64,000 bases of DNA from Bacteroidales bacterium (GTDB lineage Bacteria; Bacteroidota; Bacteroidia; Bacteroidales; F082), in NCBI GenBank assembly GCA_016290215.1, contig JAEETH010000007.1, positions 39,465-103,464 on the forward strand, written 5' to 3'. This document shows, piece after piece, positions 27,899 to 37,363 of this stretch. The notes under the pieces were generated by a model. The model worked only from the letters and a program-made list of their open reading frames with translations. It made no database searches and had not been told where the DNA came from. The translations under genes and the position numbers were made by a program. Within the stretch, counting starts at the first letter, position 1. Every line of letters begins with the position of its first letter.

Positions 27899-29170
27899 TT
27901 ATGAAAAAAGTGCTTTTTCGAAGCCTTGCATGATGATTTTTGTGGCTCCAATTTGTGATTTGAGATACTTTCGGCAGGTTTCGGAAGCCTTGGCATAAAA
28001 AGCCTCGTCATCCATCAAACGACGACAAACCGTCGACAATTCGTCGGCATCATGGATGGGGAAAGCCCCTTGCAACGCCACCAAATCCACCGCTTCCTTG
28101 AAGTTCGTGTATTTCGGCCCGAAAATCACGGGGCAGCCAAAGGTGACGGGTTCCTGGATGTTGTGGATGTTGACGCCAAAGCCGCCACCGATATACACAA
28201 AGCGCGCATACTGATAAAGCTGAGAAAGAATACCTATTGTGTTTACAATTAATACCCTTGTCAATCGGCATTTCGACAGGCTCAATGACCTTAGATCGTC
28301 CGCGTCCAACTCCGTGTAGCATTGGCTTTCAGGAAACATCGCCTTGATTTGCGCCACATGGCTTTCAGAGACATCGTGAGGCGCCATGATGATGCAATAA
28401 TCATCGGGCAATTGCTGAACAAAAGTCGTCCAAAGGCGTTCGTCGGGCGGCCAGGTGCTACCTGCTATGATGCACTTGCGTCCCGCAATGAAACGCTCCA
28501 CCTCGGGGAAAGGTTTTGCCTGCTCCGCAATGGCTGCCACACGGTCGAAGCGTGTGTCGCCACAAAGCGTGACATTGTCGTAGCCCACATTATGCAAAAG
28601 CCCGACCGTGCCTTCATCCTGAACAAAGAAATGGGTCACAGCATCGAGTTGCTTACGGAACCATCTACCGTATGGCTTGAAGAAAAACGAGTTCTTGTTG
28701 AGAATCAAAGAGATGTAAAACAGCGGAATGCCCGCCTTTTTCAACGCCCGCATATAGTTGAACCAAAACTCGTATTTGATAAAAAACGCGGCCACAAAAT
28801 GATGGCGTTGCACCCATTTGGAGGCGTTCCAAGGCATGTCGGAAGGCAAATACAGGACTTCGTCAGCCAAAGGATAGTTCTTCCGCACCTCATACCCTGA
28901 AGGGGAAAAGAAAGAAAGCAGGATTTTGAACTGGGGATGCGTCTGTTTTATGGCCTCGATGACGGGTCGGCCCTGCTCAAACTCACCCAACGATGCGGCA
29001 TGGAACCAAATCCACTGCTCATTCGGCCCGTCCACGGTCTCCGGCACCTTGGCTTTTCTTTGTTGCCGACGGCCTTCAACCCATTGTTTGGCTTTTGGAT
29101 GGCCGAACCAAGCCGCCACCAAAATGCCGAAAGTGTACAACAGAACGCCTAAAGTAAACAGCATCAGCAT
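27899..29170 (-). CDS. waaA: 3-deoxy-D-manno-octulosonic acid (Kdo) transferase, 423 aa
   Basis: GT30 enzyme that adds Kdo to lipid IVA on the inner face of the inner membrane, an essential LPS core step. N-terminal membrane anchor (MLMLFTLGVLLYTFGILVAAWFG), then WFHAASLGEFEQGRPVIEA with the conserved catalytic-base Glu region, LLSFFSPSGYEVRKNYPLAD, and a C-terminal CMP-Kdo domain with VYIGGGFGVNIHNIQEP. Residues ~293-305 (LRSLSLSKCRLTR) interrupt the usual short link before the VLIVNTIGIL strand and are encoded by a family E repeat at 28267-28290. The gene overlaps no neighbour but starts 3 bp after the outer-membrane barrel gene, so they form an operon. Confidence 0.92.
   Translation of the reverse strand: MLMLFTLGVLLYTFGILVAAWFGHPKAKQWVEGRRQQRKAKVPETVDGPNEQWIWFHAASLGEFEQGRPVIEAIKQTHPQFKILLSFFSPSGYEVRKNYPLADEVLYLPSDMPWNASKWVQRHHFVAAFFIKYEFWFNYMRALKKAGIPLFYISLILNKNSFFFKPYGRWFRKQLDAVTHFFVQDEGTVGLLHNVGYDNVTLCGDTRFDRVAAIAEQAKPFPEVERFIAGRKCIIAGSTWPPDERLWTTFVQQLPDDYCIIMAPHDVSESHVAQIKAMFPESQCYTELDADDLRSLSLSKCRLTRVLIVNTIGILSQLYQYARFVYIGGGFGVNIHNIQEPVTFGCPVIFGPKYTNFKEAVDLVALQGAFPIHDADELSTVCRRLMDDEAFYAKASETCRKYLKSQIGATKIIMQGFEKALFS
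28267..28290. repeat. Family E repeat inside the Kdo transferase gene
   Basis: GGCATTTCGACAGGCTCAATGACC is read in frame on the minus strand as RSLSLSKCR. The words match the intergenic copy at 46619-46645 and the LptF/G tail. Confidence 0.75.
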
Positions 29171-29173
29171 CAA

Positions 29174-29986
29174 TTAATCATAGTAATACTTCTCGGGCTG
29201 GCGTTGGTAGGTCGGGATGTTCCAAGTGACGCGAATGCCGTAGTAGAAGTCGTTGAAGCGTTTCTTCGGGTCGGTGGGACCCACAGGTTCCATTATTCCC
29301 GTTTCGGGGTTGGTAAACACGCGGAAATCGTAGTCACGGAGTTCACGTGTGCGGGCGTATGTCACCTCAAGGGCTATGGAAAGGTTAAGCAAGCGGTTGT
29401 CGCTAAGGTAGAGATAACCCGTCTCGAAATGAACTGCCGGGCCGCCGCGCATTCGGTCGTAACCATATTTATAGTCACCAGCCAACGCAAAAGGCTTATT
29501 CAACAAGGTCTCCTGGAAATCGGCACGGATGCGGTTGCGGAGATAGCCCAAACCGCCTTGCACAAAGAAACCAGAGTTGGGATTGGTGCCGTATGAAAAC
29601 AACTTGCCCACCTCAGCTTGGAAGAGGAAGCCTCGCTGTTCGATGGTCAGCTCAGACATGCTGCCACTACCGCCGATGATTTCGCCATCCACCGTGGTGA
29701 TGCCTTCGCCAAAAATCGAAATCCAACCACCTTTCACCCTGTTGCCCGTGATGAAATTGCCGTTTGCGGTAAAAAGCCAATTGGATTCTGTCTTATAGAC
29801 AAAACTGCCCCCTATCGAATGGTTGAAGCCATACATGTCTCTCGTGTTCATGGCGGGCAACTCAAAGGCGTAGGTCACCTGAAACATGGCCACCGGGATG
29901 GGTTCTTGCATGATATCCTTGACAGGCTGCGCCGACAGATGAAAAACGAAGCCTAACAAGAGAAAAGGTATAAGGACTTTGCGCAT
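29174..29986 (-). CDS. Outer-membrane beta-barrel-like protein, 270 aa
   Basis: Signal peptide 1-20 (MRKVLIPFLLLGFVFHLSAQ). The rest alternates hydrophobic and polar residues with many aromatic girdle residues and ends in an aromatic strand (YYGIRVTWNIPTY), consistent with an 8- to 12-strand outer-membrane barrel. Motifs such as GGSFVYKTESNWLFTANGNF and FFVQGGLGYLRNRIRADF are strand-turn-strand repeats. I recognise no named family; similar genes upstream of Kdo transferase are common in Bacteroidales. The gene lies 3 bp from waaA on the same strand and shares a palindromic promoter (30035-30056) with the divergent peptidase gene. Role in envelope assembly is inferred. Confidence 0.7.
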   Translation of the reverse strand: MRKVLIPFLLLGFVFHLSAQPVKDIMQEPIPVAMFQVTYAFELPAMNTRDMYGFNHSIGGSFVYKTESNWLFTANGNFITGNRVKGGWISIFGEGITTVDGEIIGGSGSMSELTIEQRGFLFQAEVGKLFSYGTNPNSGFFVQGGLGYLRNRIRADFQETLLNKPFALAGDYKYGYDRMRGGPAVHFETGYLYLSDNRLLNLSIALEVTYARTRELRDYDFRVFTNPETGIMEPVGPTDPKKRFNDFYYGIRVTWNIPTYQRQPEKYYYD

Positions 29987-30034
29987 AACAATTCTTTTTT
30001 ATCCAACGAGCAAACGACGGTTTTAGTATTGCGC

Positions 30035-30056
30035 TGCAAAAATACGTATTTTTGCA
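30035..30056. promoter_or_regulatory. Perfect palindrome carrying two opposed -7 boxes
   Basis: A 22-bp perfect palindrome centred on TACGTA. On the plus strand TATTTTTG is at 30047-30054, 19 bp before the M16 start (30073). On the minus strand the same word is at 30037-30044, facing the barrel gene (start 29986). Both boxes share the same DNA, so only one polymerase could occupy it at a time. Confidence 0.7.
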
Positions 30057-30072
30057 CGCAATTAATCGAAAA

Positions 30073-31314
30073 ATGCTGGAAAACAAATACACCGAAGCCG
30101 TCCTTCCCAACGGCATCAGGCTGATACATAAGGAAAAACAAGGCGAGATTGCCCACTTGGTGCTCATGGTGGAAACGGGCACCCGCGACGAATTGGCACA
30201 CGAAAACGGTCTCGCCCACTTTGTAGAACACACCATCTTCAAAGGCACGCAAAACCGCAAGGCCTACCATATCCTGAGTTGCCTCGACAATGTGGGTGGC
30301 GACCTCAACGCCTTCACCACCAAGGAGGAAACGTGCATCCAGGCCACGTTTCTCAAGCAACACTACAAGCGCAGCCTCGACCTTTTCGCCGACATCGCCT
30401 TCCGCTCCATCTTTCCCGAAAACGAGTTAGCCAAGGAAAAGGAAGTCATCCTCGACGAAATCAACTCGTATTTGGACTCACCCTCCGACGAGATTTATGA
30501 CCTGTTTGAGGAGATGGTCTTCAAGGGTCATCCCTTGTCGCGCAACATCTTGGGCACCACTGAGTTGGTGAGAGGCTTCCATCGTCAGGACATCCTCGAC
30601 TTTATGGCGCACAACTACAGCACCGACCAGATGGTGTTGGCCAGCATCGGCGACATCAGCTTCAAGGAATTCGAGCGGATGGCCATGCATGAGTTTGGCA
30701 GCCAACCGGCGCACCTTATTAATAAAAAGCGGGAAATCTTCAAGGGTTACACGCCTGAACAACGCGCTGCAAAGCGTAACAACCACTTGAGCCACTGCAT
30801 CATAGGCGGCATCGCGCCCGAGTTCAGCAGCCCTTTGCGTATGCCCATCGTGATGCTCAACAACGTGCTGGGTGGTCCCGCCATGAGCTCACGTCTTGGC
30901 TTGAACATCCGTGAGAAATACGGCTTCGCTTACAGCATCGAGTCGCAATACACCGCTTACAGCGATGTCGGTCTTATCAACGTCTACATGGGCGTCGACC
31001 CCGATTCATTGGAAAAGGCTATTGAGTTGGTACACAAAGAATTGAACAAACTTTGCACACAAAAGTTAGGTACTTTGCAACTGCATCATGCCAAGCAACA
31101 ACTCATCGGGCAGGTCGCCTTGAGCTACGAAAGCGGCATGAACGAGCTTTTGAGTGCGACGCGTTCGCTCCTCATGGGCGAGCCCATCGAATACATGGAC
31201 GACATCATCCGCAATGTGGAGGCTGTTTCTGCTGAAGACATTTTGGACGTGGCCAATCGGGTGTTTGACGAGGGGCAGCTGAGTCAGATTATCTTCGAAG
31301 GAGATACCCCGTAG
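30073..31314 (+). CDS. M16 family zinc metallopeptidase, 413 aa
   Basis: The inverted zinc motif HxxEH appears as H49-F-V-E52-H53 (LAHFVEHTIFKGT), and the downstream Glu ligand lies in KEVILDEINSYLDSP (~125-135). The C-terminal half carries the R/Y substrate-binding pattern (RLGLNIREKYGFAYSIESQYTAY). A single-chain length of ~410 fits the PqqL/processing-peptidase type that works as dimer or with an inactive partner. No signal peptide is seen, so cytoplasmic or exported by another route. Start is the ATG at 30073; an upstream frame start lies inside the promoter. The stop codon TAG and the last residues (GDTP) are encoded by the first REP hairpin (31306-31318). Confidence 0.9.
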   Translation: MLENKYTEAVLPNGIRLIHKEKQGEIAHLVLMVETGTRDELAHENGLAHFVEHTIFKGTQNRKAYHILSCLDNVGGDLNAFTTKEETCIQATFLKQHYKRSLDLFADIAFRSIFPENELAKEKEVILDEINSYLDSPSDEIYDLFEEMVFKGHPLSRNILGTTELVRGFHRQDILDFMAHNYSTDQMVLASIGDISFKEFERMAMHEFGSQPAHLINKKREIFKGYTPEQRAAKRNNHLSHCIIGGIAPEFSSPLRMPIVMLNNVLGGPAMSSRLGLNIREKYGFAYSIESQYTAYSDVGLINVYMGVDPDSLEKAIELVHKELNKLCTQKLGTLQLHHAKQQLIGQVALSYESGMNELLSATRSLLMGEPIEYMDDIIRNVEAVSAEDILDVANRVFDEGQLSQIIFEGDTP

Positions 31315-31586
31315 AGGTTATCTATTCATAACCAACAACACCTATTTTACACCAACTATACCCCGTAGGGGTTTCCTCTTCATAACTAACAACCACCAAC
31401 ACAATAAAAACTACCCCGTAGGGGTTTTCTCTTCATAACCAACGATACCTGTTTTTCACCAACCATACCCCGTAGGGGTTTCCTCTTCATAACTAACAAC
31501 CACCAACACAATAATAACTACCCCGTAGGGGTTATCTATTCATAACCAACGATATCTAATTTTCACCAACTATACCCCATAGGGGT
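31306..31586. repeat. Upstream REP array of the RAYT (6 hairpins, CCCCGTAGGGG)
   Basis: Six hairpin cores of type ACCCC-GTA-GGGGT at 31306, 31360, 31413, 31467, 31520 and 31574, 53-54 bp apart. The first has CCCCGTAGAGG and the last CCCCATAGGGG. The spacers alternate between two forms (one with CAACGATACCT, one with CAACCACCAACAC), giving a ~107-bp higher-order period. This fills the 283-bp gap between the M16 gene and the transposase. Confidence 0.9.
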
Positions 31587-31597
31587 TTTCTACAAAG

Positions 31598-32059
31598 ATG
31601 GCAAACACATACAATCAAATCTACATCCATTTAGTCTTCGCAGTGAAATACCGCGATGCCGTCATCGACAAATCATGGCGGCAAGAGCTTTACCAATACA
31701 TCATCGGCCTGATTGCCAACAGAGGCCACAAAGTTTATTCAATCGGTGGGATGAGCGACCATATCCACATCTTGGTGAGCCTTTCGCCCAAACAAGCCAT
31801 TTCAGAATTGGTGTTGGAAGTGAAAAGGGCCTCATCCTTGTGGATAAAAGAAAAGCAATTTGTTAGATGCCAGTTTGCTTGGCAAGAAGGATTCGGAGCA
31901 TTTTCGTATGGCAAATCACAAGTGGATAATGTTGTAAAGTACATCCAAAACCAAGAGAGCCATCATGCCAAACATACATTCAGAGACGAATATGTTTCGT
32001 TCTTGAAACTATTCGGCATCGAATATGATGAAAAATATGTGTTTCGTGAGATGGAATGA
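31598..32059 (+). CDS. REP-associated tyrosine transposase (RAYT, Y1/IS200-like), 153 aa
   Basis: Single-domain HUH transposase: strand YIHLVFAVKYR, metal-binding H55-I-H57 in SDHIHILVSL, a helix with ELVLEVKRASSLWIKEK and catalytic-type Tyr115 in the C-terminal helix (VVKYIQNQESHH). These enzymes cut and rejoin single-stranded DNA at hairpins through a 5'-phosphotyrosine link. Size and the YIQNQ..HH ending fit RAYT/IS200-type proteins. It lacks a partner TnpB and is flanked on both sides by arrays of short hairpins in opposite orientation, which is the REP-RAYT layout rather than a classical IS200. All key residues are present, so it may be active. The frame appears intact. Confidence 0.9.
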   Translation: MANTYNQIYIHLVFAVKYRDAVIDKSWRQELYQYIIGLIANRGHKVYSIGGMSDHIHILVSLSPKQAISELVLEVKRASSLWIKEKQFVRCQFAWQEGFGAFSYGKSQVDNVVKYIQNQESHHAKHTFRDEYVSFLKLFGIEYDEKYVFREME

Positions 32060-32073
32060 CCATAGAAAAGGAA

Positions 32074-32498
32074 ACCCCTACGGGGTAAAGTAAAAGTTGA
32101 GAATCAGCCGTTTCCATTAAAAGATAGCCCCTACGGGGCAAGGTGACGACAAAAAAAAGGGGTTTCAATTAATAGACAGCCCCTACGGGGCAAAGCAACA
32201 ACAAAAAGACAGCTTCAATTACAAGGTAGCCCCTACGGGGCAAAATGACGACAAAAAAGGGTTTTCAATTAATAGACAGCCCCTACGGGGCAAAGCAACA
32301 ACAAAAAGACAGCTTCAATTACAAGGTAGCCCCTACGGGGCAAAATGACGACAAAAAAACAGGTTTTTCAATTAATAGACAGCCCCTACGGGGCAGGGTG
32401 ATGACAAAAAACTAGCTTTTCCATTAATAGATAGCCCCTACGGGGCAGGGTGATGACAAAAAACTAGCTTTTCCATTAATAGATAGCCCCTACGGGGC
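32074..32498. repeat. Downstream REP array of the RAYT (9 hairpins, CCCCTACGGGG)
   Basis: Hairpin cores ACCCC-TAC-GGGGT (32074) and GCCCC-TAC-GGGGC (32127, 32179, 32229, 32279, 32329, 32382, 32434, 32486), 50-53 bp apart. The tetraloop is the reverse complement of the upstream array, so the arrays are inverted about the gene. Spacers again alternate (GCAACAACAAAAAGACAGCT versus ATGACGACAAAAAA), with a ~100-bp higher-order repeat. Confidence 0.9.
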
Positions 32499-32519
32499 AA
32501 AATGACGACAAAAAAAGCT

Positions 32520-32813
32520 TCAATTAAAGCGGAAAATAATCGGTTAAAGCGGAAAAACTCCGATTAAAACGGAAATTTTACAAAATTGATTTATTTTTTT
32601 CTCATCTCACACTCATCGACTTACCCCATGTGATGAAAAATAGTTGAAAAAAAAGCTTGACAAATTTTTCCCAGTTTGTAATTTTACAGCATGAAACGAC
32701 ATAAAAATAGATTAAAACAGAATTTTTTAGATTGAATTATACCTAGAACGGGCTTTAGGCCAAAAAACAACATGAAACACCTTTAACTGTATTTTTCACC
32801 AAAAACAAACAAC
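32520..32813. other. AT-rich leader with TTAAAGCGGAAAA repeats and a weak promoter
   Basis: Three copies of TTAAA(G/A)CGGAAA lie at ~32524-32575. A TTGACA-like -35 (32658-32663) and TAATTTTA (32679-32686, 7 of 8 to TAnnTTTG) could be the promoter of the T9SS gene at 32814, giving a leader of ~120 nt. A 14-codon frame (MKRHKNRLKQNFLD) starts at 32691, but nothing supports its use. Confidence 0.4.
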
Positions 32814-34244
32814 ATGAAAACTAGACTTTACACCCTTATCACCGGTCTGCTGATGGCCGTCTGCATCACGGGTAACGGACAAGAAATCGTCAGCACTTTC
32901 ACCTCAACCTCAACCTGTTGGTATGGCGATATCGTAGAAACCTCTGACGGAAATTTCATCATTGGGAACTGCATCAGCCTTTTTAACGACAGGGAATACA
33001 TAGTTTACAAAGTCACTCGCGAGGGTGCCTACCGCGACAGCATCTGTTTATACAATATTTACGGCTTGCTGGAAGTTCCAAATGAGACCGATCTGATGCT
33101 CCTTTATGGCTTTAGTATCGAATCCAACATCTATCATCTTACACTCACACTCATCGATACTAGCCTCAATGTGGTCAGCGAAACCAGCATCCCCATCGGC
33201 GAGTGTGTCTATGAGTTTTGGGATGGCACTGTTTTTGTCGCGCCTAACGGAGAAATCCTTTTTCCGTATAGTATCGACGTGTTCCACATCATGCGTATAG
33301 GATTAGACGGCATTGTATTGGAGGACAAGGCTTTCCCAGAAATACCTTGTGGCACATGGGATCCAGAGAGCACTAATGACTCCGAGGTATATTATTCCGA
33401 CATCAATGTCTTCACCAAATCGCCTTTAACCTATCACTGCCTTGGCTTCTATAGGAACTCGGATGGTACGACCATTATGACCAACCATATTCTTGACGAG
33501 AACTTGAACATCATCGAGAACATTGAATACGACCCTTATGAGCCAAATTCCATTTTCGGACCAGAAAATTATTCCAGCATTGCCACACTCGGCACTGGTA
33601 TGGAACCAAAGAAAACCTACCTGTCCACATCGATGAGGTTCTCTAACTCAAACCCGGCATCCACCATCATCAGATACGACATCAACCACCATCCTGACGC
33701 GGCACTAAGTTTTGCAAGCAACACGCATCCTGGCTTTCTTAAAACAAAAGGAGAAAATATCCTATATTTCTCATTGACATATTATGAAACTTTCATCACT
33801 CTTTACCGCTTGGACGGTAACCTCACCGACATTTGGCACATTGGGCTGCCCAATACGACTTCATCACAGACTGCCTTGCACACAATGAAAATCCTGAGAA
33901 ACGGAGACATCATCATCGGATGCAGCATATACGTTAATAACGGACCTTTATTCCAATACTTCATCATCCACGACAGCACTTTGGACAGCACAAAAGAAAT
34001 AGTTACGACTAATGATCATTTTAAGGTCTTCCCCAATCCTGTAAAGGACGCATTGAGCCTCGAATTCACTGACGGCGCCGAGCCTAAGAGCGTTGAACTT
34101 TATGACATCGCAGGCCGCTTGGTCAGCACCAAACCAAACAATTTGGAAAGCATCGACATGAGCGCGATGCCCTCTGGGGTCTATATGCTGCGCGTCACCA
34201 TGAAAGACGGTACAAGCTACAATGAAAAGATTTTAAAAGAATAG
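32814..34244 (+). CDS. T9SS-secreted protein of unknown function, 476 aa
   Basis: Signal peptide ~1-22 (MKTRLYTLITGLLMAVCITGNG, cleaved before QEIVSTF). The body is beta-rich and reads like a propeller: repeated strands such as GDIVETSDGNFIIGNCI, GTVFVAPNGEILFPYSI and LHTMKILRNGDIIIGCSI, which follow the D/NG-(D/N)-I-I-I blade pattern. The T9SS sorting domain occupies ~400-476 (FKVFPNPVKDALSLEF, VYMLRVTMKDGTSYNEK). Substrate or partner unknown. It lies alone after the RAYT island and is followed by a terminator at 34285. The start is the only good ATG before the signal peptide. Confidence 0.78.
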   Translation: MKTRLYTLITGLLMAVCITGNGQEIVSTFTSTSTCWYGDIVETSDGNFIIGNCISLFNDREYIVYKVTREGAYRDSICLYNIYGLLEVPNETDLMLLYGFSIESNIYHLTLTLIDTSLNVVSETSIPIGECVYEFWDGTVFVAPNGEILFPYSIDVFHIMRIGLDGIVLEDKAFPEIPCGTWDPESTNDSEVYYSDINVFTKSPLTYHCLGFYRNSDGTTIMTNHILDENLNIIENIEYDPYEPNSIFGPENYSSIATLGTGMEPKKTYLSTSMRFSNSNPASTIIRYDINHHPDAALSFASNTHPGFLKTKGENILYFSLTYYETFITLYRLDGNLTDIWHIGLPNTTSSQTALHTMKILRNGDIIIGCSIYVNNGPLFQYFIIHDSTLDSTKEIVTTNDHFKVFPNPVKDALSLEFTDGAEPKSVELYDIAGRLVSTKPNNLESIDMSAMPSGVYMLRVTMKDGTSYNEKILKE

Positions 34245-34284
34245 CGTAAGTGCTTTTTCCATAATGATTTAGTTTTAGTTGATT

Positions 34285-34317
34285 AAAGCGGAGGCAAAAA
34301 GTCTCCGCTTTTCTCTT
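34285..34317 (+). terminator. Intrinsic terminator after the 32814 gene
   Basis: AAAGCGGAG (34285-34293) pairs with CTCCGCTTT (34303-34311), followed by TCTCTTT. Confidence 0.8.
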
Positions 34318-34364
34318 TCATGAATGGCACTGTCATTCTTTTTACACAAATGGCCATAAATCAC

Positions 34365-34417
34365 ACACGAATTTTTCATTAATGACAATTCATGATTCAT
34401 TGATGAAAATTCATGTC
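34365..34417. repeat. CACGAATTTTTCATTAATG / ATGAAAATTCATG inverted repeat
   Basis: The stretch contains CACACGAATTTTTCATTAATGACAATTCATG and CATTGATGAAAATTCATG-type words that can pair imperfectly. A related element with CACGAATTTTTCA and ATGAAAATTCGTG lies at ~37418-37460. Confidence 0.45.
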
Positions 34418-34428
34418 GGAAAAACGAT

Positions 34429-34935
34429 TCAGTTCGTCTTGAACTTGTATTTTACCTCTTTCAGTTCAGCGTTGGCTTTGGTAATCTTGTTCTTCAAGTT
34501 TTCCTTATAATTCGCAACCTTGGCGGCGATTTGTGCGTCGCCTAAAGCCAGCATCTCGGTGGCGAGGATGGCGGCGTTGAGGGCGCCGTTCACACCCACC
34601 GTGGCCACGGGAATCCCAGGAGGCATCTGGATGATGGACAGCATGGCATCGAGGCCATCGAGCATACCTTTGACGGGCACGCCGATGACAGGCAAAGTGG
34701 TGTTGGCGGCAATTACACCTGGTAAGGCGGCTGCCATGCCAGCGGCGGCGATGATTACTTTAATGCCACGGCCATGGGCTTCGCGGGCAAAGATTTCGAC
34801 TTCTTGCGGGGTGCGGTGTGCGCTTAGGGCGTTCATCTCAAACGGGATTTCCATCTCGTCGAAGAACTGTGCGGCTTTTTCGAGAACGGGAAGGTCGGAA
34901 GTGCTTCCCATGATGATGCTTACAATTGGAGTCAT
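34429..34935 (-). CDS. purE: N5-carboxyaminoimidazole ribonucleotide mutase PurE, 168 aa
   Basis: Class I PurE: moves the carboxyl group of N5-CAIR to give CAIR in purine synthesis. Motifs in order are VSIIMGSTSDLPV (substrate phosphate and Ser), SAHRTPQEV (the catalytic His-containing loop), IIAAAGMAAALPGVIAANT, and GVPVKGMLDGLDAMLSIIQMPPGIPVATV. Length is standard plus a basic C-terminal tail (KANAELKEVKYKFK). It is a monocistronic gene; the promoter side is a mixed repeat region at 34936-35090. Cytoplasmic octamer in known homologues. Confidence 0.95.
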   Translation of the reverse strand: MTPIVSIIMGSTSDLPVLEKAAQFFDEMEIPFEMNALSAHRTPQEVEIFAREAHGRGIKVIIAAAGMAAALPGVIAANTTLPVIGVPVKGMLDGLDAMLSIIQMPPGIPVATVGVNGALNAAILATEMLALGDAQIAAKVANYKENLKNKITKANAELKEVKYKFKTN

Positions 34936-34939
34936 ATCA

Positions 34940-35090
34940 GTTGGCAGTTTTCAGTTTGCAGTTGTTCAGTTATCAGTTGGCCGATGGCTGATGGCCTATG
35001 ACTATGGCTCGCTTCACGCAAAAGGTCAAGCATGAACCATTGGCATAAGCAAGCCATGGGCCATTCGCCATAGGCCATAGTTTTGAACGC
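34940..35090. repeat. Mixed intergenic repeats upstream of purE
   Basis: First part: CAGTT..CAGTTTGCAGTTGTTCAG-type short repeats. Second part (~34995-35088): GGCCTATGACTATGGCTCGCTTCA with inverted GGCCATTCGCCATAGGCCATAG. The second matches a similar element at ~57538-57630 (TATGGCCTATGACTATGGCTCACTTCA ... GAAGCGAGCCATAAGCCAT). Confidence 0.6.
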
Positions 35091-35137
35091 AAAAATAGTT
35101 TTTTTCCCAATGCGGTTGACCCAATCGAAGCATTTTG

Positions 35138-35145
35138 TATATTTG
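35138..35145 (+). promoter_or_regulatory. -7 box TATATTTG for hpt
   Basis: TATATTTG is 43 bp upstream of the ATG at 35189, with TTGAC at ~35116 as a -33 candidate. Confidence 0.6.
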
Positions 35146-35188
35146 TGTCGCCTAAACAAAAGGGCAAAAACACTTCAATCCTTTGAAA

Positions 35189-35728
35189 ATGAAAACAGTA
35201 AAAGTTTTAGACAAGGAATTTGGGCTGTATATCCCCCAAGAAAAAATCGAAAACAGCATCCAAGAGGTGGCTAACCAGATTAACCGTGACCTGGAAGGCA
35301 TGAATCCACTGTTTCTCGTGGTGCTCAACGGCGCCTTTATGTTCGCCTCCGAGCTTTTTAAGCGTCTGACGATTCCCTGCGAAATCAGCTTCGTCAAGCT
35401 GTCGTCGTACGCTGGAACCGAGACCACCAACGTCATCCGCGAACTCATCGGCCTTGACCACCCGTTGAACGGTCGCCATGTGGTCATTGTGGAAGACATC
35501 GTCGACACAGGCCACACCTTGCGCTACACCACACAAAAACTCCGCGACTTGAAAGCCGCCGACGTGCGTATCGCCACGCTGTTCTTCAAGCCGAACAACT
35601 TCCAATACACCTACCCCGTCGACTACATCGGCATGGAAATCGGAAATGAATTCATCGTCGGCTACGGACTGGATTATGACCAACAGGGGAGAAATCTACC
35701 GGATATTTATAAAATCATTGAGCAATAA
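35189..35728 (+). CDS. hpt: Hypoxanthine phosphoribosyltransferase, 179 aa
   Basis: Type I phosphoribosyltransferase: LFLVVLNGAFMFASELF as the dipeptide/pyrophosphate loop, VKLSSYAGTET near the flexible loop, and the PRPP-binding signature VVIVEDIVDTGHTLRY (~97-112). It salvages hypoxanthine or guanine to IMP or GMP with PRPP. The C-terminal EIGNEFIVGYGLDYDQQGRNLPDIY is typical. The start is ATG 35189; an in-frame TTG at 35183 gives two extra residues only. It is followed by family A copy 6 and adk. Confidence 0.95.
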   Translation: MKTVKVLDKEFGLYIPQEKIENSIQEVANQINRDLEGMNPLFLVVLNGAFMFASELFKRLTIPCEISFVKLSSYAGTETTNVIRELIGLDHPLNGRHVVIVEDIVDTGHTLRYTTQKLRDLKAADVRIATLFFKPNNFQYTYPVDYIGMEIGNEFIVGYGLDYDQQGRNLPDIYKIIEQ

Positions 35729-35730
35729 TA

Positions 35731-35863
35731 GAGATTCCCCTACGGGGAATGGAGGGAGAATCATTAAGTACTAGCGGCGGCAGAAGGATTTTATACAACG
35801 TAGGTGCTACAAGCCGCCGCTGTTTAAAACAAAACGGTTCTTCCATTCCCGAAGGGAAACTCT
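35731..35863. repeat. Family A element, copy 6
   Basis: 5' hairpin ATTCCCC-TAC-GGGGAAT, central GCGGCGGC...GCCGCCGC, 3' hairpin ATTCCC-GAA-GGGAA(A). In reverse complement its centre reads AGCGGCGGCTTGTAG as in copy 1, so copies 1 and 6 are in the opposite orientation to copies 4 and 5. Confidence 0.85.
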
Positions 35864-35918
35864 TCAAACGATTCAACAATTAAACAATTCAACATTCAAC
35901 AATTCAACAACACATACC

Positions 35919-36488
35919 ATGCTAAACATCATCCTATTTGGCCCTCCAGGGGCAGGCAAGGGAACACAATCTCAGTTCCTGCGCGAGAAATACAACCTGA
36001 CCTACATCTCCACGGGTGAAATCCTGCGCGAGGAAATCGCAGCCGAAAGCGAATTAGGTCTACAAGTGAAGGAAATCATCAGCCAAGGCAACCTCGTCTC
36101 CGACGAAATCGTGGCCAAAATCATCGAGAAGAAGCTCTCCGAGAACATGGACTCTGCCGGCTTCCTCTTCGACGGCTACCCGCGCACGGTGAAACAAGCC
36201 GAAATCCTCGAAGAGATGATGGAGAAATTCGGCATGTCGCTGACGGGCGTGCTGAGCCTCGAAGTGCCTGAAGAGCTCCTCATCGAGCGCATGTTGGAAC
36301 GTGGTAAGACCAGCGGTCGCGCCGACGACAACCTCGACTCCATCAAGCATCGCTTTGTGGAATATGAGGCCAAGACGCGCCCCGTGCTCGACTTCTACGA
36401 AGGCAAGGACAACCTGCACGCAGTGAACGGCGTGGGTGAGATCCCGCAAATCTTCGAGAACCTCTGCACGGTAATTGACGCTTTGTAG
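35919..36488 (+). CDS. adk: Adenylate kinase, 189 aa (short, LID-less form)
   Basis: P-loop GPPGAGKGTQ at 7-16, YISTGEILREEI (AMP-binding site), FDGYPRTVKQAE, then RMLERGKTSGRADDNLDSIKHR. Here the long zinc-type LID of the 214-aa form is replaced by a short loop. It interconverts ATP + AMP and 2 ADP. Length fits the short Bacteroidota forms. The leader is made of AACAATTAAACAATTCAAC repeats (35875-35915). It is followed by a long structured repeat at 36495. Confidence 0.95.
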   Translation: MLNIILFGPPGAGKGTQSQFLREKYNLTYISTGEILREEIAAESELGLQVKEIISQGNLVSDEIVAKIIEKKLSENMDSAGFLFDGYPRTVKQAEILEEMMEKFGMSLTGVLSLEVPEELLIERMLERGKTSGRADDNLDSIKHRFVEYEAKTRPVLDFYEGKDNLHAVNGVGEIPQIFENLCTVIDAL

Positions 36489-36494
36489 TTTTAA

Positions 36495-36616
36495 TGGGAT
36501 TGCTTCGCAAGAAATCTTTCAAAAATCAAATAAAAATCTTTCAAAATCAAATGATTGTATTTTGATTAGATTTTGGAAAAAGATTTTTGAATGATTTCTA
36601 CACGAAGTGTATCCCA
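36495..36616. repeat. Compound hairpin element (TGGGAT...ATCCCA)
   Basis: Outer arms TGGGAT/ATCCCA, a small 5' hairpin TTGC-TTC-GCAA, a long internal stem GAAATC.TTCAAAAATC with GATTTTTGAA.GATTTC, and a small 3' hairpin TACAC-GAA-GTGTA. The layout (two small hairpins with TTCG/CGAA loops around one long stem) is like family A but with a different sequence. It lies between the convergent adk and acyltransferase genes. Confidence 0.75.
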
Positions 36617-36619
36617 CCA

Positions 36620-37363
36620 CTAATGTTCCCAGTGGATGTCGTGCTTGAGGACAGTTGGTGGATTGCCGCCAATGACTTGATGCTCACCCGCAAAGGATGA
36701 GGTCAACAATGTGCCTGCCGCCACGACGGTATTGTTCGGTACCTGAGTGCCTTTCAACAGAACGCATTTGCACCCAATCCAAACATGGTCACCCACCAGG
36801 ATGGGCTTGTCGGGATTGAGGCGTTCGTTCTCCATATTATTTGACGCGGGACATGGGACTTCGGGACACGAAACGGTACCATGGTCTCGCGTCTCGCGTC
36901 TTTCCGTCTCATGTCCATGAAATATGGGATGCTCGTCGGTGTCCATCACGAGGATGTCCCAACTCAGCAGACAGTCACGTCCGAAACGGATTTCCTTGGC
37001 GCAGACGATGGTGCTCTCCGCAGTCATATTGAAATCCGCACCGAAACTCAAATGGCCACGCACCGAAATCTTCGAGCCATGCCCTATGCTCGCTTTTCCG
37101 CCGAAGCTGACCGTGCCACTCACCTGCCAGATGCTGCGTGAGCGTTTGCGGTCGTAATGTCCCACATCGCCGAAACCGATTTTCACCATCGCCGTTTCCA
37201 CCTTCTCGGGCAGTTCCACCTTGCCGTGCAACTCGCGCAAATAAGTGCGGTACGACACCACAACAGGCAACTTCAAAGCCGTCTTCAGCGGAAAATAATG
37301 CAGATTAAAGCGCAGCGTCTTCGGAATCGAGCGGATGATATTGAAGAAATCGAAAGCGGTCAT
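36620..37363 (-). CDS. LbH-type acyltransferase with an inserted segment, 247 aa
   Basis: Left-handed beta-helix (hexapeptide) transferase: GKASIGHGSKISVRGHLSFG and IVCAKEIRFGRDCLLSWDILVMDTDEHPI, then PDKPILVGDHVWIGCKCVLLKGTQVPNNTVVAAGTLL. This is the maltose/galactoside O-acetyltransferase-like fold using acetyl-CoA, and such proteins often modify surface polysaccharides. The first ~60 residues are family-specific. Residues ~150-175 (HETERRETRDHGTVSCPEVP) sit between HPIFHG and ENERLNPDKPI, where homologues usually have a short acidic loop. This insert is encoded by GAGACGCGAGAC-type repeat DNA at 36838-36908. If folded, it would protrude from the coil turn and need not kill activity. Confidence 0.8.
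   Translation of the reverse strand: MTAFDFFNIIRSIPKTLRFNLHYFPLKTALKLPVVVSYRTYLRELHGKVELPEKVETAMVKIGFGDVGHYDRKRSRSIWQVSGTVSFGGKASIGHGSKISVRGHLSFGADFNMTAESTIVCAKEIRFGRDCLLSWDILVMDTDEHPIFHGHETERRETRDHGTVSCPEVPCPASNNMENERLNPDKPILVGDHVWIGCKCVLLKGTQVPNNTVVAAGTLLTSSFAGEHQVIGGNPPTVLKHDIHWEH
36838..36908. repeat. GAGACGCGAGAC-type repeat inside the acyltransferase gene
   Basis: The minus strand shows GACGCGAGACGCGAGAC followed by GTCCCGAAGTCCC and CCCGCGTC, an imperfect inverted repeat. The same words make up the intergenic element at 10093-10192. Confidence 0.7.

Follow-up and report, generated by a model that had tools for sequence, protein, structure and literature searches.

A probable REPtron-like unit of a subclass 1.2 TnpA between inverted mini-hairpin arrays in a Bacteroidales genome

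In a 64,000-nt stretch of DNA from a Bacteroidales bacterium (GCA_016290215.1, contig JAEETH010000007.1, positions 39,465 to 103,464 of the forward strand; hereafter, the window), a gene encoding a 153-amino-acid HUH/Tyr transposase (tnpA) lies between two arrays of short hairpins in mirror orientation. Judging from sequence comparisons, this locus is probably a REPtron-like unit of a TnpA of subclass 1.2 (Y1 HUH), with locally expanded arrays; it would thus resemble the units formed by repetitive extragenic palindromes (REPs) and their transposases. The host genome is a 3.80-Mb draft metagenome-assembled genome (MAG) of 153 contigs, 85% complete, and the window lies within its contig C88.

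The association of such hairpins with tnpA extends well beyond the window. A protein search of 149 genomes of the family returned matches in 111, under an E-value limit that admits more distant TnpA proteins too, and the loci compared comprise 29 from this family and 80 from named records (the best 80 of 581 confirmed), mostly from Bacteroidota with a few from neighbouring groups. Of 30 family loci, L049 was excluded for want of a TnpA frame recognized by the script; L100, L124, L125 and, in part, L115 were retained although the frame that the script read from its starting position is short, and L036 and L096 are one locus from two collections, leaving 108 distinct loci among the 109. Within 400 nt of the gene, 55 of these loci have a GTA-loop hairpin on the upstream side, 49 have a TAC-loop hairpin on the downstream side, and 33 have both, compared to means of 0.05, 0.2 and 0, respectively, in dinucleotide shuffles (20 per flank); only 2 of 673 distant windows contain a GTA hairpin. 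With six loops allowed (GTA, ATA, GAA, GGA, GCA and AGA), a mini-hairpin with a 5-bp stem is found within 200 nt of tnpA in 79/109 loci, as against 10/1421 distant windows. This association persists when loci are thinned by protein identity (77/107 below 97%, 56/79 below 80% and 11/15 below 60% identity), as well as when the window and its four orthologues are removed (74/104). For 120 of 139 pairs of same-sense neighbours the spacing is 47-57 nt, and the commonest layout is the mirror image '> > tnpA < <', sometimes with an extra '> >' further out. A mixed array was observed at one TnpA locus (L045, G118:C10), in which CCAGGGGT-tcc-ACCCCTGG is interleaved with GCACCCC-gta-GGGGTGC hairpins.

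The design of these hairpins is conserved through pairing in the stem and through sequence in the loop. The GTA loop is combined with 26 different stems of 5 bp. In 233 C-GTA-G sites picked without any stem requirement, complementarity at pairs 2-5 amounts to 92/88/89/87%, compared to 79/49/39/37% when the arms are dealt anew and 28-38% at distant sites, and pair 6 is at background. The covariation persists in all thinned sets (89/84/88/84% versus 74/44/39/39% below 80% identity). Thus, the stem is a 5-bp stem kept by compensation and the loop is kept by sequence. Among hairpins with a closing C-G pair, the loop conforms to R-N-A in 202 of 266 near tnpA and in 15 of 86 distant ones. On the GTA strand, a tail at +11 to +22 is conserved across loci and is not a run of T; in Flavobacterium daemonense it looks, by eye, coincident with the inverted-repeat arms CTACCAATAT/ATATTGGTAG. 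The accessible text on GNA triloop DNA mini-hairpins closed by a G-C pair describes them as extraordinarily stable in single-stranded DNA (PMC4686876). By analogy, this stability would fit a role of the present hairpins in single-stranded DNA, without being proof of one. Folding of two 13-mers and their complements with DNA parameters gave equal energies on both strands (-3.4 and -2.9 kcal/mol), and folding energy was rejected as a sign of strand choice, given that equal energies hide any GNA effect.

The transposase frame is intact, as the original prediction had it, and matches Pfam Y1_Tnp with 105 bits. The same prediction had called the locus a REP-associated tyrosine transposase (RAYT) locus, of which the pairing of gene and hairpins stands and the identity of the enzyme does not: the curated RAYT model gives 23.9 bits against a cut-off of 80, which does not support a strict RAYT label for the protein, and the NCBIfam IS200 model NF033573 gives 80.5 bits against a cut-off of 55, placing it within the IS200 type. 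The predicted fold (predicted local distance difference test, pLDDT, 90) is closest to the structures of ISDra2 and IS608 TnpA, with TnpAREP (4er8) the last of 30 structure matches at E <= 0.001. The protein carries the motifs DHIH, WQ and YIQNQESHH, the last of which contains the Y-x3-Q-x2-HH signature of TnpA-Y1 subclass 1.2; Q119 and H122-H123 are invariant in 17 of 17 aligned proteins, the class-2 motif Y---NP is lacking, and the H-u-H, WQ and Y motifs occur together in 101/109 loci. The window TnpA would thus belong to class 1 and, at the level of its motifs, fits subclass 1.2. Its best plasmid-borne relatives are 52% identical and of the IS200 type, and they add little to the picture. 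Two Y1 genes, 42% identical, were found in the window genome, a draft whose 85% completeness could hide collapsed identical copies. The second of them (L002, G000:C72, ~30290-30736) has arrays of its own, made of GCAGGCGACGTGAGTCCCTGC hairpins (22 genome-wide matches at <=2 mismatches) and GTCCC hairpins in a layout unlike that of the window.

Within the window (Table 1), the hairpin counts, coordinates and mirror orientation of the GTA and TAC loops were confirmed, with the correction that only four of the six upstream hairpins are perfect, all with a GTA loop; of the other two, one has an ATA loop and one a stem mismatch. The 11-mer at <=1 mismatch occurs 18 times in the 64 kb, 15 of them in the two arrays; 100 shuffles averaged 0.58 occurrences and never exceeded 3. 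The alternation of two spacers, proposed for both arrays with units of ~107 and ~100 bp, holds upstream, where copies 2 and 3 of the 107-nt unit are 92% and 71% identical to copy 1, and over five downstream spacers (100-nt unit, one copy 99% identical), but it is broken by the last two downstream spacers, which are an exact 52-nt duplicate. Hairpin 1 supplies the last codons (ACC CCG) and the stop (TAG) of the upstream M16 peptidase gene.

Comparison of this M16 site among relatives reveals orthologous sites that are empty, hold two hairpins or are expanded. Orthologues of tnpA with 91-96% identity occupy the same position 3' of the M16 gene in G144, G110, G113 and G114. Counted strictly, the longest same-sense chains number 5 upstream and 9 downstream of tnpA in the window and 3/3, 5/4, 2/3 and 3/2 in these four genomes, respectively; the window array is the longest of the 109 loci, only 4 of which have a chain of at least five. 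These differences bear out the local expansion that had been proposed. Of 30 M16 loci, 29 were resolved (all but G156). ACCCC hairpins are present in 7/29, in all seven of which the M16 protein ends in GDTP followed by the stop, and M16 proteins at sites without these hairpins end otherwise. A different, composite repeat stands at two further sites (G100, G126) and a CTCC hairpin at another (G138); the remaining 19/29 show none of these repeats in the next 260 nt. The seven include G145 (L157, G145:C7), with two ACCCC hairpins ~50 nt apart and no TnpA at the site. Identical arrays in genomes lacking any RAYT had been named as a finding that would refute the original view; here the gene is missing from the site, but G145 has other TnpA genes elsewhere. 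The L157 site gives the impression that a loss between direct repeats removed the gene together with the central part of the array. In G149, an 87%-identical TnpA lies on a contig other than that of its M16 gene, directly followed by about eleven near-identical 60-nt repeats (L237, G149:C51:45200-48200), each with one CCCC-type hairpin (TAAC-like loop) and one CTCC-type hairpin (GTA loop). The array sizes in the window, its orthologues and G149 thus indicate that arrays have grown more than once.

Hairpin units also occur away from tnpA. The exact 11-mer is found 22 times in the window genome (control 0), 13 times in the arrays and nine times elsewhere, where the flanking sequence belongs to two other repeat families. 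Searched together with its tail (<=2 mismatches), the CCCC-stem unit has 17 matches in its own genome, 14 at the locus and three outside, two of the latter with the compensated stem CTCC/GGAG; the outside units of this genome are of sister types only. The unit is present in 5/5 genomes with a close orthologue and in 0/7 others. With the tail, CCCC-stem units occur in 6/6 genomes with an orthologue at the M16 site; otherwise they are found singly in G145, G154, G125 and G118. CTCC units are scattered, frequently in direct pairs ~50 nt apart. A pattern covering both stems matches in 19 of 80 genus genomes, compared to one match of the reversed control in all 80. Behind the named loci, 106 copies of GTCCCGTAGGGAC are present in 10/12 genomes (control 0), about 32 of which sit at the source tnpA loci by coordinates, and 6 of 13 stretches read show inverted outer GTCCC hairpins 120-140 nt apart, an arrangement that is REPIN-like; other tnpA genes may lie near the dispersed units. 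F. daemonense, a cultured relative, is among those with REPIN-like units. Inverted hairpin flanks recurring elsewhere, as expected of a REPtron-like unit, are found in relatives. An empty-site comparison of one dispersed copy (G000:C78) seemingly matched its flank to paralogous C-terminal regions of the type IX secretion system (T9SS), not to orthologues. The original prediction had seen in this locus a possible founder of a REP population, and had stated that a lack of copies elsewhere would refute its view. Copies do exist outside, but they are few and of sister types; the founder proposal is rejected as stated, since hardly any copies of the exact unit lie away from the locus (14/17 are within it) and its CTCC cousins also occur where a close orthologue was not detected, as in G138.

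Table 1. Features of the tnpA locus and its surroundings (positions in the window).
Feature	Positions	Strand	Remarks
M16 peptidase gene	30052..31314	+	Pfam PF00675/PF05193; host gene at insertion site
Upstream higher-order repeat, 107-nt units	31305..31597	+	Two alternating spacers; repeat family D3
Upstream hairpin 1, ACCCC-GTA-GAGGT	31306..31318	+	One stem mismatch (GAGG arm)
Upstream hairpin 2, ACCCC-GTA-GGGGT	31360..31372	+	
Upstream hairpin 3, ACCCC-GTA-GGGGT	31413..31425	+	
Upstream hairpin 4, ACCCC-GTA-GGGGT	31467..31479	+	
Upstream hairpin 5, ACCCC-GTA-GGGGT	31520..31532	+	
Upstream hairpin 6	31574..31586	+	ATA loop; 11 nt 5' of tnpA start codon
tnpA, 153-aa HUH/Tyr (Y1) single-strand transposase	31598..32059	+	IS200-type; subclass 1.2 motifs
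Downstream array, nine perfect hairpins	32074..32498	-	TAC loop on + strand, GTA on - strand
Downstream hairpin starts	32074, 32127, 32179, 32229, 32279, 32329, 32382, 32434, 32486		
Downstream higher-order repeat, 100-nt	32153..32352	-	Two copies, 99% identical; repeat family D1
Composite repeat, ATTCCCC-TAC-GGGGAAT ... AGCGGCGGC/GCCGCCGCT ... TTCCC-GAA-GGGAA	35734..35861	+	Different family, outside arrays

Two further repeats were noted near the arrays. Adjoining the downstream array, three 20-nt repeats with a TTAAAGCGG core span 32513-32572, and similar TTAAAGCGGAA stretches stand 3' of the M16 stop in certain relatives that lack the element, so that these repeats seem part of the host region before the next gene. 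The composite repeat, which combines outer ATTCCC..GGGAAT-type hairpins (TAC and GAA loops) with an inner stem GCGGCGGC/GCCGCCGC, is also present at G000:C45 (L005) and 3' of the M16 gene in G126 (L159) and G100 (L153). Composite-type hairpins lie directly 3' of the M16 stop in both of these genomes, which is the site of the window element, and the inner stem is present in G126.

In the mechanism we propose, the 13-nt mini-hairpins (5-bp stem, C-GTA-G triloop) and their 3' tail would be the putative single-strand recognition sites of the enzyme, the GTA strand would be the one recognized, and TnpA would act near the tail. By analogy, the GTA-strand mini-hairpin is most likely recognized in single-stranded DNA as REPs are by E. 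coli TnpAREP, which, in the accessible part of its description, acts on the REP and not on the complement (PMC8266576). In relatives, the basic layout has hairpins spaced ~50 nt apart that point towards the gene from either side. In the window genome, units of one or two hairpins would have been duplicated in tandem to give the 6 + 9 copies. Gene-less units would act as non-autonomous elements that have spread either in direct pairs or in an inverted, REPIN-like form. We infer the binding, cleavage and strand choice by TnpA, the movement of units by it and the mechanism of their duplication from these patterns. Array growth is tandem duplication, with which the enzyme and plain slippage both fit. 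Terminator-like behaviour of the inward-facing hairpins is a possible side effect.

An account that shares much with this one takes the arrays for simple tandem repeats grown by replication slippage, leaving TnpA a part only in the origin of single units. The closest units are indeed neighbours (the 99% and 100% identical copies) and chains of five or more are as rare as noted above, but slippage does not account for loop, orientation and spacing being conserved among loci, nor for the covariation, and we consider it a rather unlikely, though serious, alternative. It departs from a REPtron-like unit only at the growth step, and the likelihoods voiced here therefore do not add up to a whole. 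The equivalog match to IS200, the fold closest to ISDra2 and IS608 TnpA, the absence of the element from 19/29 resolved orthologous sites and the near relative of tnpA elsewhere in G149 would all suit an ordinary IS200-like insertion sequence, the hairpins forming its termini and the arrays being mere copies of these, without any REP-like population. IS608-type ends, however, function on a single strand, unlike the window hairpins, which are inverted on the two sides; hairpin units without tnpA are dispersed; and the two Y1 genes of the genome have diverged to 42% identity, in a draft that may collapse near-identical copies. These points make an ordinary insertion sequence improbable. Less probable still, to the point of being very doubtful, is that the hairpins are RNA elements, for instance terminators or attenuators pointing inward, which would protect tnpA or bring the M16 transcript to an end, with a secondary link to TnpA. 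Such a role could draw on 18 terminator-like sites in 31200-32800 (2.1 in shuffles), on T-rich tails 3' of the GTA-strand stems at the window locus and on the overlap of hairpin 1 with the M16 stop codon. However, the stems are of 5 bp only, the cross-locus tail is not a T-run, the mirrored arrays advance in ~50-nt steps, sister units stand elsewhere without the gene, and a scan of 29000-37000 gave no Rfam match at or above the gathering score, so that a known RNA family there was discarded as a candidate.

Several observations weigh against interpreting the locus as a REPtron-like unit. No hairpin of the kind described lies within 200 nt of the gene in 30/109 loci, though 28 of these 30 have Y-x3-Q-x2-HH. 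A second TnpA clade of the genus (15 loci, L177-L191) has a GTA or ATA hairpin directly 3' of the gene in 15/15, and its upstream hairpins are mixed in sense; hairpin orientation is therefore not universal. The motif used for this clade missed 11 of its 30 loci. G138 (80% complete) has 21 CTCC-stem matches, and a close orthologue was not detected in it; GTCCCGTAGGGAC is absent from 2/12 named-locus genomes; and the 9-mer core CCCGTAGGG is not commoner than its reversed control in most of the 149 family genomes, for which reason its genome-wide count was set aside as uninformative about dispersal. In a draft MAG, array length may be mis-assembled. The accessible text of Quentin et al. 2018 also describes Bacteroidetes subclass 2.6 tnpA genes with atypical flanking structures that recur in the genome (PMC6006769), and in the open-licence literature, as far as its texts were available, we found no biochemical test of a subclass-1.2 protein.

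As far as the available literature shows, the locus resembles REP/RAYT systems and REPINs in its HUH/Tyr gene, its short inverted hairpins and the dispersal of inverted doublets without tnpA. The described REP/RAYT systems comprise, in the same texts, class-2 enzymes and a small class 3. The window enzyme, in contrast, is of class 1 (Y-x3-Q, versus Y..NP in the class-2 RAYTs), GTAG is not a foot 5' of the stem, since GTA makes up the loop and the G opens the 3' arm, and the window-type hairpins are same-sense neighbours ~50 nt apart. A short stem has a precedent in Marinomonas, for which the accessible text reports a 5-bp REP stem (PMC8266576). The arrays as such are not new, since tandem arrays of evenly spaced REPs and REPIN clusters are described for P. 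fluorescens SBW25 in the portion available (PMC3116915). The classification of Quentin et al. 2018, in the parts accessible, places subclass 1.2 in Bacteroidetes and Cyanobacteria (PMC6006769), and its proteins share DH[IV]H, WQ, Y-x3-Q-x2-HH, a length of ~150 amino acids and the occurrence in Bacteroidetes with those described here. The same text enters 'no' for associated structures in this subclass, in contrast with the hairpins in 79/109 loci. Its automatic search asked for a fully paired stem with at least 7 nt, preceded on the 5' side, at a distance of 0-2 nt, by a GT[AG]G foot (GTAG or GTGG); it would miss the present hairpins, in which GTA forms the loop and the stem has 5 bp. Subclasses 2.4, for which REPs are reported, and 2.6, with its atypical structures, are likewise from Bacteroidetes, and differ in having the class-2 catalytic motif Y---NP and extra domains; this distinction follows their description in that text. 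The likeness to IS200/IS605 elements (IS608, ISDra2) lies in the protein fold, the models and the hairpin-flanked gene, set against inverted, repeated 5-bp hairpins with GTA-like loops and dispersed tnpA-less units here. GNA mini-hairpins share the G-N-A loop and G-C closing, and those in the accessible text are synthetic oligonucleotides (PMC4686876), so that their role in the present locus would be an extension. In searches of open-licence papers we found neither this hairpin family described nor REPs reported for subclass 1.2. Taken together, these data allow the tentative proposal, for which we would claim slightly less than an even chance, of an unnamed single-strand mobile-repeat system of Bacteroidota and near relatives, in which a class-1.2 TnpA would read hyperstable GNA-type DNA mini-hairpins by loop instead of by GTAG foot, in ~50-nt sets, spread REPIN-like units and expand arrays.

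REP/RAYT systems serve as a model for the domestication of transposases and for repeats that are maintained within genomes. The results presented here suggest that a class-1 TnpA subclass catalogued without REPs has a hairpin family of its own, of a different design, which would provide an independent case for the coevolution of enzyme and repeat, for recognition by loop versus foot, and for array growth. Furthermore, the occurrence of empty, two-hairpin and expanded orthologous sites makes the growth step directly testable.

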